45,776 bases of DNA, from positions 1 to 45,776 of the IMG/VR virus record IMGVR_UViG_3300031379_000005; one strand, written 5' to 3'. How positions within the stretch are numbered: position 1 is the first letter of the stretch; each line of letters opens with the position of its first letter. Below the pieces are notes generated by a model. That model was given only the letters and a program-made list of their open reading frames with translations, searched no databases and had not been told where the DNA came from. Position numbers and translations under genes: made by a program. Of this stretch, positions 2,944 through 45,776 are shown piece after piece. This DNA comes from a virus.

Positions 2944-3480
2944 TTATTCCTTCACTTCAAAACCAGAGGGCTTAGTCCCTCCGTCTTCGTGATTCTCTTT
3001 CCTTTTTACCCATTGACAGTTCATACATAAGGTCTGATACCCCTCTGGATAACCTAAGTTCTTCAACCTACGATATAAGGCAACTCCCGTAAGCTCTCCT
3101 AAATCCCTAAGAGCCTTACCATCCCCCTTGATATGGTCTATTGATAGTGCTCTTATATCATTATAACCGCAGCGAACACAAGCTAGTTCTCCCTTGCCAT
3201 AGTATGTTAGGGTCTCAATTCTCACTTGTTGGTTCATTTGATTTTGATGTTCCCTATTCTTTTCCCTGCTTCGCTTGCAGTATTCAAGTATTTTTTCCCT
3301 GTTTTTTATTCTATAAGCAATAAATTTATCTTTGTTCTTATGATAGTACTCTTGCCTTTTCCTATTGGCTTCCTCTTTATGCTCTTGATGGTATAGTTGT
3401 CTTCTTCTGTTAATTTCATCTCTATTTCTCTGACGATATTGACGAGCAGATTCTCTATTGGCTTCTTTGGTTGTCATCAA
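2944..3480 (-). CDS. HNH homing-type endonuclease
   Basis: 178 residues. The N-terminal ~90 residues are Arg/Lys/Glu-rich and helical, a likely DNA-binding region. The C-terminal half holds an HNH/zinc-finger core: C-V-R-C, then the H-bearing strand LSIDHIKGDG, then LCMNC close to the end. This is the beta-beta-alpha-metal nuclease fold of free-standing phage homing endonucleases. It is related to the HNH protein at 21500-21985 in both halves. It sits inside the late tail cassette between two structural genes and overlaps the upstream gene by 4 bases, so it is probably an intruding mobile gene that is not needed for virion assembly. Confidence 0.88.
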   Translation of the reverse strand: MMTTKEANRESARQYRQRNRDEINRRRQLYHQEHKEEANRKRQEYYHKNKDKFIAYRIKNREKILEYCKRSREKNREHQNQMNQQVRIETLTYYGKGELACVRCGYNDIRALSIDHIKGDGKALRDLGELTGVALYRRLKNLGYPEGYQTLCMNCQWVKRKENHEDGGTKPSGFEVKE

Positions 3481-3788
3481 GACTTGACCTCGAATCCATC
3501 AAAGCAAATACATACATCGTTCTCAGCTACATACTTCACTCTCCACCAACCAGCAGTACCATCACTAGGGATGGAATATGTTTGCTTGTATACCCCTGTG
3601 GATACATTATCCATAGATGTAGCTTCCTGTTCCTCTTCACCATCAGGGTCGTATATGGTAGCTTTGGGATAGTTGTCAGTTAGGTCTGTTAAGTCCCACT
3701 CCTTAGTAGTGAAGTTCCACTCATAACAGTCACACTCTAACTGAATGCTCTCTCCTTTCTCAAAACGTCTAGTCTTTAATTGCGTCAT
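3477..3788 (-). CDS. Small beta-rich tail/baseplate-associated protein
   Basis: 103 residues, acidic and beta-rich, with the pattern of an Ig-like or BppU-like domain: a start such as RFEKGESI, a central ATIYDPDG turn, and a later W-W-R-V-K-Y-V strand. It is translated with its neighbours (2 bases from 3790, 4-base overlap with the HNH gene). Tail assignment rests on position and fold appearance. No motif fixes a function. Confidence 0.6.
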   Translation of the reverse strand: MTQLKTRRFEKGESIQLECDCYEWNFTTKEWDLTDLTDNYPKATIYDPDGEEEQEATSMDNVSTGVYKQTYSIPSDGTAGWWRVKYVAENDVCICFDGFEVKS

Positions 3789-21499: not shown

Positions 21500-21985
21500 A
21501 TGACCAATTCTAAGGAATACCAAAGAAGATATAGAAAAGAACATAGAGAAGAGTTCAAGGAGTATCAACGTAACTATAGAAAGAGACATCCAGAGGAAGT
21601 CAAGAGGTCTGAAAAGAAACAAAGAGAAAAGCATAAGAAAAACAATCAAAGATATATGAAGCTCTATTATCAAGAACATAAAGAAAGACTCTTGAGACTT
21701 AGGAAAGATTGGAGAAGGAAGCTTAAAGAAGAAGTCCTGACCCATTACGGAGGAGGGAAGCTAGCTTGTGTTCTTTGTAGTGAAAACGATGTTGACTGCC
21801 TAACCATTGACCATATCAAAGGTGGAGGCAATAAACAGAGAAGAGCACTTAAACTTAGTAATACTACTACATTCTATCATTGGTTGGAAGATACAAATTT
21901 TCCCAAAGGTTACAGGACGTTATGTATGAATTGTCAGTTCAAAGAGAAGGAAAGGATGAAAAGGCTTACTGGTGGCGGAAGATAA
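21500..21985 (+). CDS. HNH homing-type endonuclease
   Basis: 161 residues. The N-terminal 85 residues are extremely basic with repeated Y-x-K/R-x-H-x-E units, likely DNA-contacting helices. The HNH core follows: C-V-L-C, LTIDHIKGGG and LCMNC near the C-terminus. It is clearly related to the HNH gene at 2944-3480. It is the first rightward gene. Its last 22 bases form one strand of the 9-base outer stem of the RNA structure 21964-22094, which ties the gene and the RNA together. Confidence 0.88.
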   Translation: MTNSKEYQRRYRKEHREEFKEYQRNYRKRHPEEVKRSEKKQREKHKKNNQRYMKLYYQEHKERLLRLRKDWRRKLKEEVLTHYGGGKLACVLCSENDVDCLTIDHIKGGGNKQRRALKLSNTTTFYHWLEDTNFPKGYRTLCMNCQFKEKERMKRLTGGGR

Positions 21986-33147: not shown

Positions 33148-33768
33148 ATGTTACAATCTAAACGGGAACAGCTAGTAAGCTACTATACTCCACTCAAGAA
33201 GTTCACTGGACACTTTGATGAGTACACTGTAGTAGCTAGGAAGGGGAAGTTTGCTAAGGAAGGACAGCAGGATGTCAATCTAAAGTACTCTAATCTATCA
33301 GACCTAGTATCTGATAGCCCTTACGAGTACAAGACTACGGTCATAGCTCTCAAGTTCAGTGATGCCTTAGCGTCTGGTTATGTTGTCTTTGAAAACAGTA
33401 TAGCTAAACTATTAGGCAAACCAGAGGGTAGTGTAGGCATTGACAACATAGTGGGTATGGACGTAACAATGGAACGTGAGGACAACTATGTATTCTTTAC
33501 TGATGACAATGGGAAGGAGAGTAAGGGGACTGTATGGAGAGTTACCAGTGGAACAGGTAAAGCTAGTGCAACAACTCCTTTAGCGAAAGCAGTAGAGCTA
33601 TTGGAAGGAAAGAGTAAAACTGAGTTCCCTGCGATAGCTATTGCTGATGACGTAATCAAGACAGATGCTACTTTGTGTAATTCCATCATTGAAGGTACAT
33701 TCTTTGATACTAAGGAAGTAACAGAGATGTATAATGAGGTAGATGGGAAGTACACGAAGAAAGCTTAG
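33148..33768 (+). CDS. Beta-rich protein of the replication block, single-strand-binding candidate
   Basis: 206 residues, ATG 33148 after AAGGAGG. Alternating strands with basic and aromatic residues (DEYTVVARKGKFAKEG, NYVFFTDDNGKESKGTVWRV) could form an OB-like barrel. The C-terminus is not the acidic tip of classical SSB. Located between helicase and nuclease genes, a single-strand-binding role is possible but speculative. Confidence 0.4.
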   Translation: MLQSKREQLVSYYTPLKKFTGHFDEYTVVARKGKFAKEGQQDVNLKYSNLSDLVSDSPYEYKTTVIALKFSDALASGYVVFENSIAKLLGKPEGSVGIDNIVGMDVTMEREDNYVFFTDDNGKESKGTVWRVTSGTGKASATTPLAKAVELLEGKSKTEFPAIAIADDVIKTDATLCNSIIEGTFFDTKEVTEMYNEVDGKYTKKA

Positions 33769-33779
33769 TGGAGATATAG

Positions 33780-34049
33780 ATGGATACACAAGTAAAAGAA
33801 AAACCACAACTAACCTTAGTAGTTACTGTCAAAGAACTTTGTAAGGTTGTTGAAACCCTCTACCAGGAGTTTCGTAGCCTATTTGGAAGCATTCCCTTCA
33901 CAGACATTGCAGAGCAAACAGAAGGAACTCCCCTAGACCATGCAATAAAGGAAATTGAGGGTGTTAATACTTCTTTATGGAGCTTCCATGATGCCCTTCG
34001 AAAGGAAATCTATCATAAAATACTACCACAAGAACCAAAGAAAGCTTAA
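33780..34049 (+). CDS. Small helical protein before the large RNA
   Basis: 89 residues, ATG 33780 behind GGAGA. Helical (VKELCKVVETLYQEFRSLFG). Last gene before the structured RNA at 34067-34455. Function unknown. Confidence 0.45.
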   Translation: MDTQVKEKPQLTLVVTVKELCKVVETLYQEFRSLFGSIPFTDIAEQTEGTPLDHAIKEIEGVNTSLWSFHDALRKEIYHKILPQEPKKA

Positions 34050-34066
34050 CAACTAAATACATATAA

Positions 34067-34455
34067 GCTGGCTACCTGAAAGGGCTGAACTGATAGGGTC
34101 AACTTAGTAGTAGAGTGATTGAGAAACGAGGCTACTAGCCAGCAAGACTACCTATTGTAGGTAAATCCTACTAGGGAGAGTTGATGGGTAATGGAGTCCC
34201 CATACTGAAAGTAGAGAGAGTAGGTAGGCATATTGAAAACAAGGCTAGTAGGTATGGGTGGTGTAGGTGTTGGAGAAGTCAACTAATTGGTAGTCAGGGA
34301 AGGTGATGGTACAACTAGGGTGTCACCAAATACTTAGTGTTCGGAGAGGTTGCACTGAGAAAAGATGGTCAGGAAGTTCTAAGGGTAGAACAGTGCTGTA
34401 TCCCTTAGAGATACTGACCCCTGTTAAGGGTGGGACTGAGTAGATTACGGTCTAC
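34067..34455 (+). ncRNA. Large folded non-coding RNA
   Basis: The 446-base stretch 34050-34495 has no gene but many well-formed stems: 34067-34074/34136-34143 (GCTGGCTA with TAGCCAGC); 34149-34154/34158-34163; 34167-34174/34245-34252 (CCTACTAG with CTAGTAGG); 34302-34306/34323-34327; 34333-34339/34353-34359; 34367-34372/34414-34419 enclosing 34378-34385/34402-34409; 34440-34444/34451-34455. A sequence like TGAGAAACGAGGCTA recurs three times (about 34119, 34233, 34356). AGTTGA at 34179 could form pseudoknots with either of two TCAACT copies. No RNA class I know fits. Size and setting recall ornate phage RNAs such as GOLLD and ROOL. Confidence 0.7.
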
Positions 34456-34495
34456 TTGGATAGGGTGGGATTTAGCAGGTTAAAGGAGATAAGAC

Positions 34496-34771
34496 ATGAG
34501 AAGTTATCCTGAAGAAGAACAAGAACACGCAGAAGAATTGGAAAGGCAGATGATAGAAGAGGAACAAGAATGGAGAGAGAACCTTTCAGCACAAGCGATA
34601 GCTGAAGCAGATACAGATACTAGGTATCCTATCTGTCCTATGAATATGTTCTTTGAAGGGGATGATATAGACTTAGATAAGTGTGATTATGACTTAGAGC
34701 TTAGAAGGTGTTCTATGAAATGTATTGAGGATAAACCAAAATTAAAGAGGTTATTTGCTAATGAAGATTGA
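34496..34771 (+). CDS. Small acidic Cys-containing protein
   Basis: 91 residues, ATG 34496 after AAAGGAG, directly downstream of the folded RNA. The N-terminal half is very acidic and coiled (EEEQEHAEELERQMIEEEQE). The second half has four cysteines (YPICPM, DKCDY, RRCSMKC) that could bind metal or iron-sulphur. It overlaps the Cas4-like nuclease gene by 11 bases, which suggests joint function. Confidence 0.5.
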   Translation: MRSYPEEEQEHAEELERQMIEEEQEWRENLSAQAIAEADTDTRYPICPMNMFFEGDDIDLDKCDYDLELRRCSMKCIEDKPKLKRLFANED

Positions 34772-35393
34772 GTTTAAGTTCCCTGACGAAGCTAACATCC
34801 TCTTGGATGAGATAAAAGAACGTTATAAGATAGCACATACACGTCCAAACCTTCATGCTACAGATGCTATCTACTGCAAACGTAAAGCTTATTGGGATAA
34901 GATAGACCCTCTACCACCAACTCCAAGAGAGTTACTATACTTCATCCAGGGATTAGGGCTACAACAGGCTATGTTGGGGGATAAGGATGCTCCCACTGGG
35001 CAGGTAGTTACCTCTAAGTTTACTCTCTTCTATTCTCCTGATAGAGTAATCAATGGACAGGTAGTAGAGTTAAAGACGGGTAGAACAGGAAGGAAGAAGT
35101 TAGAGGAAGGACTTATCCCCGAAGGATGGATTAAGCAGATAATGTTTTATTGTTATGCTATGGGGAAGAACCAAGCTCTATTGGTAGACTTCACAATAAT
35201 CAGTCCTGATATAATTCCCATTGTATTAACATTTACAGTTGAAGAGTTAGAAGCTAATGCTAAGTGGGTATTAGATAGAGCTAATAGTCTACATCAATCC
35301 CTAACCAACAAGGAAGTTCCCCCCAAAGAAGAGAGTTGGCAGTGTAAGAATTGTAGATATCAGTTAAGGTGTAGGATAGAGAATAGTGGATAA
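34761..35393 (+). CDS. Cas4-like PD-(D/E)XK nuclease with iron-sulphur cysteines
   Basis: 210 residues from ATG 34761, 10 bases behind AGAGG. A TTG at 34755 is less likely. Cys39 in A-I-Y-C-K-R-K-A-Y-W and a C-terminal trio Cys195, Cys198 and Cys204 make the four-cysteine cluster of Cas4/AddB-type nucleases. The catalytic core E-L-K-T-G (Glu103, Lys105) is followed by Q-I-x-F-Y-C-Y-A-M-G. It probably resects DNA ends during recombination or degrades host DNA. No CRISPR array accompanies it. Confidence 0.85.
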   Translation: MKIEFKFPDEANILLDEIKERYKIAHTRPNLHATDAIYCKRKAYWDKIDPLPPTPRELLYFIQGLGLQQAMLGDKDAPTGQVVTSKFTLFYSPDRVINGQVVELKTGRTGRKKLEEGLIPEGWIKQIMFYCYAMGKNQALLVDFTIISPDIIPIVLTFTVEELEANAKWVLDRANSLHQSLTNKEVPPKEESWQCKNCRYQLRCRIENSG

Positions 35394-35879: not shown

Positions 35880-36265
35880 AAGTAGATAAGAAGGTTGTAC
35901 AAGAACTTATTACTAATCTTGAAGTGGGAGAGAAGGACTTCTTAAAGAATTACCACAGCATAATAGCTAGGATGGAAGAAGCTACCACTGTAGAAGGGTT
36001 GATGAGCCTTAAACAAGAGATGCTTTATACCTGGGTGGAATACTTTCCTTCTGGAGGAGACAAGTGCTATTTCTGCGTACAAAGAAAGGGGGCTGAGTGT
36101 AATAAATGTCCTTATGCAGCAATTCATGGTATCTGTGGATTAGGAATAAATGATTGGGGTAAGTTGGCAGAAGCTATAGAGGAATTAGATGTCGCTATAC
36201 AGGGCTATTATCAAGATGATATATACCACTCAGTTAAAACTGATATTGAAGTTAAGGAGGCATAA
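35876..36265 (+). CDS. Cys-rich probable zinc or iron-sulphur protein
   Basis: 129 residues. Helical N-terminus, then C-Y-F-C, C-N-K-C-P-Y and G-I-C-G clustered within about 30 residues (near 63-91), a likely metal-binding centre, and an acidic C-terminus. It is coupled to the protease gene by a TAATG. It resembles small phage proteins of unknown function. Confidence 0.55.
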   Translation: MKVDKKVVQELITNLEVGEKDFLKNYHSIIARMEEATTVEGLMSLKQEMLYTWVEYFPSGGDKCYFCVQRKGAECNKCPYAAIHGICGLGINDWGKLAEAIEELDVAIQGYYQDDIYHSVKTDIEVKEA

Positions 36266-37110
36266 TGGACACAAAACAATTACACGAATCAATTTTATAC
36301 CCTGTGGTAAGGGTAAGAACAGAGAAGGCTGGTGGTTCAGGTACTATCATATACTCTGAACCTAACCCAAAGAACAAAGAGGAGTATCAAACTTTCGTAA
36401 TGACCTGTGCTCATGTGGTAGAGGATGCCATAACAGTCAAGAAAGAGTGGGATAGTTATCTGAGGAAGAACATAGAGAAGGAGTTTAAGAAACTTGTACA
36501 GGTAGAAATCTTTGATTATGTCTTTATGAGCACAGTGAACAGTTCCAATGCTTATAAGGCAGAGATTGTAGCCTATGACAAAGCACAGGATATAGCTATA
36601 CTTAAACTTCAGAGTCCTAAGCAATGTTCTTATATAGCTAAGATTATCCCCAAAGAAGAGATAAAGGATGTAAAGCTATTCACTCCAGCTTATGCCTCTG
36701 GATGTAGCTTAGGACATGAACCTTTTGCTAACCTGGGACAGATAACATACTTAACTGAAGAGATAGATAATAAGTTATATTGGATGACTAACTGTAGCTC
36801 TATCTTCGGTAACAGTGGTGGTGCTATCTTCTTAGCTGAGTCTGGGCATCAGGTAGGTATAACTGCTAGAATCACAGGGTTACAACTAGGCTTTGGTCAA
36901 GACATTATCACCTGGATGGGATTCTCTGTAGCTCCTCAGAGGATATATGAGTTCTTTGAAGAGCAAGACCTAAGATTCCTCTTCGATGATAAGGACACCT
37001 ATGAGAAGTCTATGAAAAGACGTGAGAAGAAACAGAAGGAAGCTTTATTGAAGATTGGAGGAGAAGTAGCAGATAATTCTGAATCAAAGGGAGAGGTAGA
37101 GGTAGACTAA
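36265..37110 (+). CDS. Trypsin-like serine protease
   Basis: 281 residues with a readable catalytic triad: His50 in V-M-T-C-A-H-V-V, Asp109 in A-Q-D-I-A-I-L-K-L and Ser184 in F-G-N-S-G-G-A-I-F. This is the chymotrypsin/HtrA fold without a PDZ domain. There is no signal peptide, so it should act inside the cell. The C-terminus is a charged helix rich in Lys/Glu. Such a protease in an early, non-structural gene block is unusual. It may cut a host or defence protein. Confidence 0.85.
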   Translation: MDTKQLHESILYPVVRVRTEKAGGSGTIIYSEPNPKNKEEYQTFVMTCAHVVEDAITVKKEWDSYLRKNIEKEFKKLVQVEIFDYVFMSTVNSSNAYKAEIVAYDKAQDIAILKLQSPKQCSYIAKIIPKEEIKDVKLFTPAYASGCSLGHEPFANLGQITYLTEEIDNKLYWMTNCSSIFGNSGGAIFLAESGHQVGITARITGLQLGFGQDIITWMGFSVAPQRIYEFFEEQDLRFLFDDKDTYEKSMKRREKKQKEALLKIGGEVADNSESKGEVEVD

Positions 37111-44786: not shown

Positions 44787-45776
44787 CTCCCACTATAAGG
44801 CATAGTGAGTCCACTTAACTCTTTCTCAGTAGCTTCACTCTTCTTTTTCAACACCCATTTAGGGTACTGGAAGAGTCCTAATCCTCCACTCTCTGTAACC
44901 CATATCATCTCTTCCTTAACCTCTTCTAAGGTCTCTGGAAGGACTATAGGCTCTTTCTTCTCAGTTCTAGCACTAATACCTTGAGGTAACTGAAGACTGA
45001 ATGGTGCAGCGTTTAATCCCTCTGCACCCAGAGAGATAATCATTTGATATACTCCCCTATCATAGAATCTCTGGATACGTGTTACAATTCCCGTTACAGT
45101 ATTCCCTCTAGCGTCAATGGCTTCAACCCTCTCCCCTAGCTGTTGGAAACATATCCCCAACATCTCTATCCTACCACTGTTACTCATCTCTTGTATCTTA
45201 TTTAATTTAAGAGTAGATAAGCTCTTAGCAAAGGTAACGATGTCTTCTATATCTGCCCATTCTCCACCAGAACGAGCAGCTACTCCAGGGATAAGAGAAG
45301 GAGGAATTATCAAATTAGCATCCACCTCTCTACCTGAAGCATTGATACTATCATCATCCTTTGCTGTGCATTCTTCCTCATCGCTTGAACGGGGAGCTAC
45401 AACAGCGTCCTCATCACGATAACCATAGTAGTGGTCATCACCATCAGCGTACTCAGTGTAGTCTGGATTATCTGAACCATCGGGTAGCTTCTCAGCTATG
45501 TCCCTTCTATTCCCTGTTAGTTTCATATCTAGTACCCTAGTAGTAACACTATTAGGGAATACAACTTCCTTGCTTCTAATAGTTACATTCACTCCATGTC
45601 CACATTGATATGTAACAACTACATCATGGTAAGAAGGAACTATATATCTAATTTGACTACTTCCTCCTGTATTTCTCTGCAGCAGGTATCCACTACCAAA
45701 GTCTAACAGTCTCATTATAGCCTCTCTCTTGGTATTCCTAATCTCTATGTAGGGCTTAACCTGATTGAGCATATTC
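44783..45776 (-). CDS. C-terminal part of the large tail protein, partial (N-terminus off the window)
   Basis: About 330 residues, frame open to the window edge. They match the last part of the left-end gene (1-2942) but with substitutions and a longer acidic Asp/Tyr-rich loop near the middle (about 10 residues net). The stop is at 44783. The C-terminal ~45 residues, missing from the left copy because of the window edge, include a Trp-rich segment ending L-T-M-P-Y-S-G-S. The internal ATG at 45772 is not a true start, because the left copy continues upstream through this point. Confidence 0.8.
   Translation of the reverse strand, partial: NMLNQVKPYIEIRNTKREAIMRLLDFGSGYLLQRNTGGSSQIRYIVPSYHDVVVTYQCGHGVNVTIRSKEVVFPNSVTTRVLDMKLTGNRRDIAEKLPDGSDNPDYTEYADGDDHYYGYRDEDAVVAPRSSDEEECTAKDDDSINASGREVDANLIIPPSLIPGVAARSGGEWADIEDIVTFAKSLSTLKLNKIQEMSNSGRIEMLGICFQQLGERVEAIDARGNTVTGIVTRIQRFYDRGVYQMIISLGAEGLNAAPFSLQLPQGISARTEKKEPIVLPETLEEVKEEMIWVTESGGLGLFQYPKWVLKKKSEATEKELSGLTMPYSGS
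44916..45776 (+). repeat. Right copy of the terminal direct repeat
   Basis: Counterpart of bases 1-831, 861 bases long. The 30-base net excess is a multiple of three and lies mainly in the acidic loop. Differences are clustered rather than even, as expected from recombining strain variants. Confidence 0.85.

Follow-up and report, generated by a model that had tools for sequence, protein, structure and literature searches.

The longest non-coding gap in the virus record IMGVR_UViG_3300031379_000005 (positions 34050–34495, 446 nt; Table 1) probably encodes an untranslated, structured RNA of a modular phage family, co-transcribed and protected by a boxA-like leader, a reading we hold with modest confidence. 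Judged by sequence comparison, this stem-bearing RNA family was previously uncatalogued and is widespread in uncultured phages. The record is a contig of 45,776 bases, all of which was analyzed and is referred to here as the window. A simple coding scan gave a coding fraction of 0.92 across it, and its next longest non-coding gap measures 250 nt. The original prediction, made from the letters of this DNA, had described a gene-free 446-base gap in a dense genome, and this description held, with 92% of the record coding and no internal ORF longer than 46 aa. The claim that the gap is rich in stems was likewise borne out. Counting perfect Watson–Crick stems within 150 nt against 100 dinucleotide shuffles, we found 21 stems of at least 6 bp (10.4 ± 3.1 in shuffles; 0/100 shuffles had as many), 7 of at least 7 bp (2.9 in shuffles; 4/100) and 4 of at least 8 bp (0.7 in shuffles; 0/100). 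The folding energy of the gap was only mildly low (z = −1.7 on the plus strand and −1.8 on the minus strand). A three-fold repeat that had also been proposed did not stand out: copies of TGAGAAACGAGGCTA lie at 34120 (0 mismatches), 34233 (4) and 34356 (4), and copies 1 and 2 have 13 of 15 bases in common in a shifted frame and both lead into an outer stem, but at least two matches at ≤5 mismatches occurred in 19% of shuffles, so that the repeat is not significant and has not been shown to exceed chance. Taken singly, neither the modest z-scores nor the repeat makes the case for an RNA in the gap. What lies behind the first repeat copy is, by its sequence, the 3′ half of a conserved domain (GGCUACUA-GCCAGC), termed domain B below.

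Table 1 Features of the gap and its flanking genes in the window
Feature	Position	Strand	Basis or remark
Upstream gene, ssDNA-binding-like (OB-fold-like)	33148–33768	+	Conserved neighbour of the RNA
89-aa ORF	33780–34049	+	TAA stop 34047–34049 inside boxA-like site
boxA-like leader TTAACAACTAAATA	34046–34059	+	Overlaps stop of 89-aa ORF; ends 6 nt before domain B
Domain B, ~80 nt	34066–34144	+	Left-out covariance model R2, covariation
Domain B closing helix, GCUGGCU/AGCCAGC	34067–34073/34137–34143	+	Covariation
Domain B hairpin, CCU-GAAA-GGG	34075–34084	+	Covariation
Domain B conserved GGCUACU	34130–34136	+	
Domain B candidate pairing, GUAG with CUAC	34107–34110 or 34110–34113 with 34132–34135	+	
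Candidate stem, GACTACC/GGTAGTC	34146–34152/34289–34295	+	Sequence only; 11-nt arms at 91%
Candidate inner stem, CCCATAC/GTATGGG	34199–34205/34252–34258	+	Holds second repeat copy; inside 34146–34295 stem
Candidate stem, GGTGA/TCACC	34302–34306/34323–34327	+	Sequence and MFE only
Candidate stem, GGTCAG/CTGACC	34367–34372/34414–34419	+	Sequence and MFE only
Candidate stem, CCTGTTAA/TTAGCAGG	34420–34427/34472–34479	+	Sequence and MFE only
Next ORF, 91 aa	34496–34771	+	AAAGGAG in front
PD-(D/E)XK nuclease gene, Cas4/RecB-like	34755–35393	+	Pfam PF12705, PHROG 1706; conserved downstream neighbour

Evidence for a conserved fold centres on domain B. A covariance model built without the window (R2) detected 34066–34144 at 45.3 bits (E = 8.9e-10), its sole match in the 45.8 kb. 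The motif recurring in relatives reads GCCAGC-UACC-CGAAAGGG ... GGCUACUA-GCUGGC, while the window version reads GCUGGC-UACC-UGAAAGGG ... GGCUACUA-GCCAGC, with two stem pairs exchanged on both sides; double compensatory changes in this helix are seen in the window and in L258. Across 22 sequences, 92% of the cells of the closing helix and the CCC-GAAA-GGG hairpin were paired, and 12 cells were changed on both sides against a shuffled mean of 2.6 (0/500 as high), as counted against shuffles and slides, without a phylogenetic test such as R-scape. Pairing scores collapsed once partners were slid, and other anchors gave 14 both-side cells against 2.3 in shuffles (maximum 9). A candidate pairing of GUAG with CUAC is conserved and near-invariant across copies; a further crossing helix within the domain, S1, was not significant when tested. 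The window thus carries the traits of the family, namely the covarying closing helix, the UACC-hairpin and GGCUACUA. Copies were gathered by two pattern scans and by an alignment-based search with the upstream gene, and further ones include other loci (L184, L188, L255–L260). Run over the fetched viral contigs and one metagenome-assembled genome (MAG) contig, R2 gave 34 matches at ~28 distinct places by our own count, after dropping near-identical records and coding-like matches. Right behind the copy in L184 lies a below-threshold match to the abiF RNA (3476–3517, minus strand; 25.7 bits, gathering 37).

A second domain, A, lies upstream of B in many relatives; its model (R3) had no match in the window up to E = 10. 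Its layout is CUUGCUGG-UGUC ... AUCGG ... GAA ... CCGA-G-CCAGCAAG, and the family was defined by GCUGGUGUC...AUCGG...CCGAGCCAGC with covarying helices P1 and P3. The pattern hit 66 viral stretches, ~45 of them real by their inner motifs, and the derived model placed the domain at ~50 distinct places, counted as for domain B. Five core pairs of the closing helix are fixed by the search pattern and so cannot vary, but pairs that covary can be added at its outer end (39, 34 and 27 of 42, against at most 35, 33 and 26 in shuffles), and UCGG/CCGA gains one covarying pair on its inner side, present in 26 of 34 (at most 24 in 5,000 shuffles). Over 39 sequences there were 36 both-side changed cells against 13.6 ± 3.3 (0/500 as high). 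Helix P2 is no more than suggestive, 22 of 37 having 4 bp (shuffle mean 14.8, maximum 22). Domains A, B and further stem domains are arranged head to tail, and B is followed by additional long stems, for example GUGGGGU/GCCCCAC or GCCUGAGCC/GGCUCAGGC, whose extensions vary in sequence. In a test of these stems, 15 of 23 loci scored above nearly all shuffles. In the related phages L138 and L139, B and the following domains are identical and the interior of domain A is wholly different behind the conserved motifs; module interiors seem, from this one comparison, to be exchanged. Four sister phages that have no boxA-like leader (L133, L145, L148, L167) show another arrangement: the place after the stop of the upstream gene begins with AAGGAGCCAG and ends with CTCCCTCTGG, an outer stem around either one hairpin or a whole A–B array.

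For the window itself, the test of the stems after domain B was not significant (6/40), and everything past 34144 is therefore candidate structure only; homologues of 34146–34495 have not been found so far. The AGTTGA of a pseudoknot that had been proposed with TCAACT falls in this stretch lacking homologues. Comparative support in the window is limited, at the level of sequence, to the boxA and domain B (34046–34144, 99 of the 446 nt). The original prediction of a structured phage RNA accordingly stands in part: the RNA is untranslated and structured and has a testable helix kept by paired substitutions, but comparative support covers 34046–34144 only. It had missed both the boxA-like leader and the build of the family from several modular domains. 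A non-functional spacer with fortuitous stems would agree with the modest z-scores and with the fact that most of the gap has no homologue; we nevertheless judge this the least credible of the explanations, chance being excluded for 34066–34144 by the E value of the left-out model (8.9e-10) and by covariation. Stems in 34146–34495 are possibly due to chance.

A DNA similarity search of 50,697 phage records gave just five chance matches of 28–36 nt. Used as a DNA query against 36 related viral records, the window RNA gave only 14–25 nt matches, and the nuclease gene as a lone query returned no viral relatives. The window terminase as query led to 51 viral loci. L002 and several other relatives likewise have a non-coding stretch between the upstream gene and the gene for the PD-(D/E)XK nuclease, of 714 nt in L002 and 332 nt in two others; some close relatives have a simple hairpin alone at the syntenic place, so that the full RNA is dispensable for the clade. 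Among genome contigs of 84,980 species, the domain B pattern had no match and the domain A pattern had 15, of which only one, in a Dehalococcoidia MAG contig, was accompanied by flanking motifs; the others read as coding sequence and were rejected. The domain A model matched that one MAG only among 393 Dehalococcoidia genomes.

Strand and position were tallied over 58 A/B elements. Co-orientation held for 52 of 56 upstream neighbours and for 49 of 54 downstream ones, and 28 of 52 elements begin no more than 32 nt past a stop codon, a combination that fits a transcribed RNA and does not fit a DNA element indifferent to strand. A replication origin or recombination site merely resembling an RNA could be expected in a replication module beside an ssDNA-binding-like gene, where the window element lies; yet the strong co-orientation with transcription, the position right after stop codons, the RNA-type boxA leader and the presence at several different sites make such a DNA-level element very improbable.

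Homologues of the upstream gene precede the RNA in 19 contigs, with a close relative in L002 (52% identity), where the nuclease gene follows downstream as in the window. The family had no sequence match in Pfam, PHROG or PDB. In an AlphaFold2 model (pLDDT 84.6) the strands follow one another as in an OB fold; the first nine Foldseek matches were SSB or SSB-like but weak (best E 0.007, TM 0.16–0.31), so the predicted assignment as an SSB is only suggestive. Neither the 89-aa nor the 91-aa ORF matched a Pfam or PHROG family. An ERF annealing protein occurs among the upstream genes of the elements (L247). The replication module of the window also holds a gene for a trypsin-like serine protease (36265–37110, plus strand; Pfam PF13365). 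This setting would also suit an intercistronic mRNA element that makes expression of the ssDNA-binding-like gene differ from that of the nuclease gene, its folds either stopping exonucleases or setting translation: the RNA sits between these two genes in many contigs, simple hairpins occupy the syntenic place in relatives, and the RNA often stops just before the next ribosome-binding site. We consider such an element unlikely, since A and B also occur beside unrelated genes at other loci, and their conserved inner motifs and covarying multi-domain folds exceed what a barrier needs.

The leader offers a lead on mechanism. TTAACAACTAAATA is the only match in the window to TTAACAAYTRAATA with fewer than 3 mismatches, and its overlap with a stop codon recurs in L063, L064, L194 and L219. 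At ≤1 mismatch, the motif lies within 60 nt of 10 of 52 arrays (19%), compared with 0.16% of random same-strand windows (~120-fold enrichment ahead of arrays); a boxA is recognisable in only 10–14 of the 52. Elsewhere in such phages the boxA-like motif follows promoter-like sequences at apparent operon starts that have neither A nor B, which suggests that boxA works separately from the RNA domains. A search for TTAACAAYTRAATAG in 119 Dehalococcoidia (Chloroflexota) genomes gave 17 matches (1 for the reversed control), mostly directly upstream of 16S, upstream of a 23S, or as the reverse complement in 16S trailers. By position and sequence, we take TTAACAAYTRAATAG to be the rRNA boxA region of Dehalococcoidia, and the window leader TTAACAACTAAATA has the same sequence as found in one of these rRNA leaders (L282). 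In two genomes (L279/L292 and L282/L293), the boxA-like 15-mer of the 16S leader returns as its reverse complement just behind that 16S gene, as expected of a putative leader–trailer helix; because the motif also pairs with the trailer, its conservation in rRNA leaders may be partly structural. One of the 17 matches immediately precedes a cobalamin riboswitch (L284, ~1500, minus strand). The sole domain A match with flanking motifs among the genomes comes from a Dehalococcoidia MAG, on a phage-like contig (L269/L276) that has the order leader, tRNA-like gene, A, B and further stems. Together with the leader motif, this contig is a lead only towards Dehalococcoidia as the putative host group.

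BoxA, located ahead of 16S and 23S in nascent rRNA, is bound by NusB/E, and Rho-dependent termination is prevented by the Nus complex, as known for the E. coli boxA (PMC5725501). By analogy, we infer that NusB–S10 would bind the phage boxA-like site. The phage motif resembles the rRNA leader boxA in that it matches Dehalococcoidia rRNA leaders and precedes an untranslated structured RNA, but the putative phage site lies inside a protein operon, overlaps a stop codon and stands before a non-ribosomal RNA. We propose that the RNA would be transcribed from the coding strand as part of the replication/recombination operon. The ribosome would leave at the upstream stop codon, and the nascent boxA would recruit the host NusB–S10 antitermination complex, as in rRNA operons. 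RNA polymerase could then escape Rho-dependent termination in the long untranslated region with its many hairpins and thereby still reach the nuclease and DNA polymerase genes, and the RNA would persist as a compact, multi-domain structured RNA.

In lambda nut sites and the HK022 put RNA, a boxA or a folded RNA within the transcript of a phage operon acts on RNA polymerase. A cis-acting processive antiterminator of this kind, in which boxA and folds together modify RNA polymerase for the downstream operon, would account for a boxA adjoining a folded, co-oriented RNA within an operon, and for the multiple copies that certain contigs carry (L257, L243, L192). Compared by description, however, the window RNA is mid-operon, has several larger domains and has no identified boxB hairpin. 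It lies ~12 kb into the rightward gene block, away from the block start, no promoter-like or terminator-like site was found in 33500–34900 and the RNA is thus not promoter-proximal, the same phages carry boxA where operons begin and neither A nor B is present, and the multi-domain length reaches 714 nt; we know of no nut or put element as long as that. We regard an antiterminator as improbable, to about the same degree as the intercistronic element.

Another reading treats the domains as tRNA-related decoys or arrays, that is, as tRNA-like substrates or baits for tRNA-acting enzymes, in view of the 7–8 bp closing stem and tandem spacing. Behind the leader of L276 lies a tRNA-like gene that has an anticodon loop of 6 nt and an acceptor, UUGCUGG/CCAGCAA, identical to the closing stem of domain A, and a tRNA-Met follows A in L212. 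ARAGORN, however, placed a tRNA close to the RNA in no more than 2 of ~55 contigs, neither ARAGORN nor the Rfam tRNA model RF00005 matched A or B, and both domains are without a T-arm, which leaves this reading with little credence. Tandem placement of tRNA-like genes, apparently with 6-nt anticodon loops, next to domain A was seen in L276 (1037–1124, minus strand), labelled 'tRNA-???' by ARAGORN, and just after A in L207.

The nearest known kind is that of ROOL and GOLLD, abundant stable RNAs that form homo-oligomeric cages. The original prediction could not match the RNA to the large phage RNAs ROOL and GOLLD, which agrees with our Rfam scans: the gap RNA had no match in the window at the gathering score, nor in 33950–34600 at E ≤ 10, and the scans of the window, the region and the relatives gave only the tRNA-Tyr of the window and chance matches. 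The ROOL and GOLLD models, which we take to be part of the library used, likewise had no match in the window (gathering score), in 33950–34600 (E ≤ 10) or in the scanned relatives. Both are phage RNAs of unknown function (PMC12286853). Like the present RNA, ROOL is large and untranslated and lies near tRNA genes in some cases, and it is pseudoknotted (PMC12286853), as the present RNA may be; the present RNA differs in its place inside operons directly after stop codons, its separable domains and, in some copies, its boxA-like leader. GOLLD is similar as a phage RNA of the 400–800 nt class with a conserved and a variable part, sometimes with tRNAs (PMC12286853), but the conserved motifs of the present family are different (GGCUACUA; UGGUGUC...AUCGG...CCGAGCCA). 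Since neither model matches, we place the RNA in a new family within that kind, and a literature search found papers on ROOL/GOLLD and on Nus, with no description of a modular A/B RNA family.

As to its role, our first but tentative preference is a phage RNA that is stable and acts in trans or much like a scaffold. A cis element setting both stability and expression between the ssDNA-binding-like gene and the downstream genes seems less likely, and any other role equally so. A wider proposal, which we put forward with considerable doubt, is that uncultured Chloroflexota phages carry interchangeable RNA module arrays behind a host rRNA-type boxA, and so borrow the rRNA antitermination machinery for abundant viral structured RNA, a functional class not described before. 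The family adds a sizeable structured RNA without a match in Rfam 15 to the few known large phage RNAs, and its covariation-supported domain models can be rebuilt by others. The boxA-like leader supplies a concrete starting point for the mechanism and a hint at the host (Dehalococcoidia, mostly uncultured), and it opens to direct testing a link between structured RNAs of phages and the machinery of rRNA antitermination.

Two further observations concern the record as a whole. Its ends (1–831 and 44916–45776) align, with gaps, over 864 columns at ~85% identity, an imperfect terminal redundancy that perhaps reflects strain variants where the ends of a complete genome meet. The ORFs at 2944–3480 (minus strand) and 21500–21985 (plus strand), read from their translations, resemble a related pair of HNH-type endonucleases with basic N-termini.
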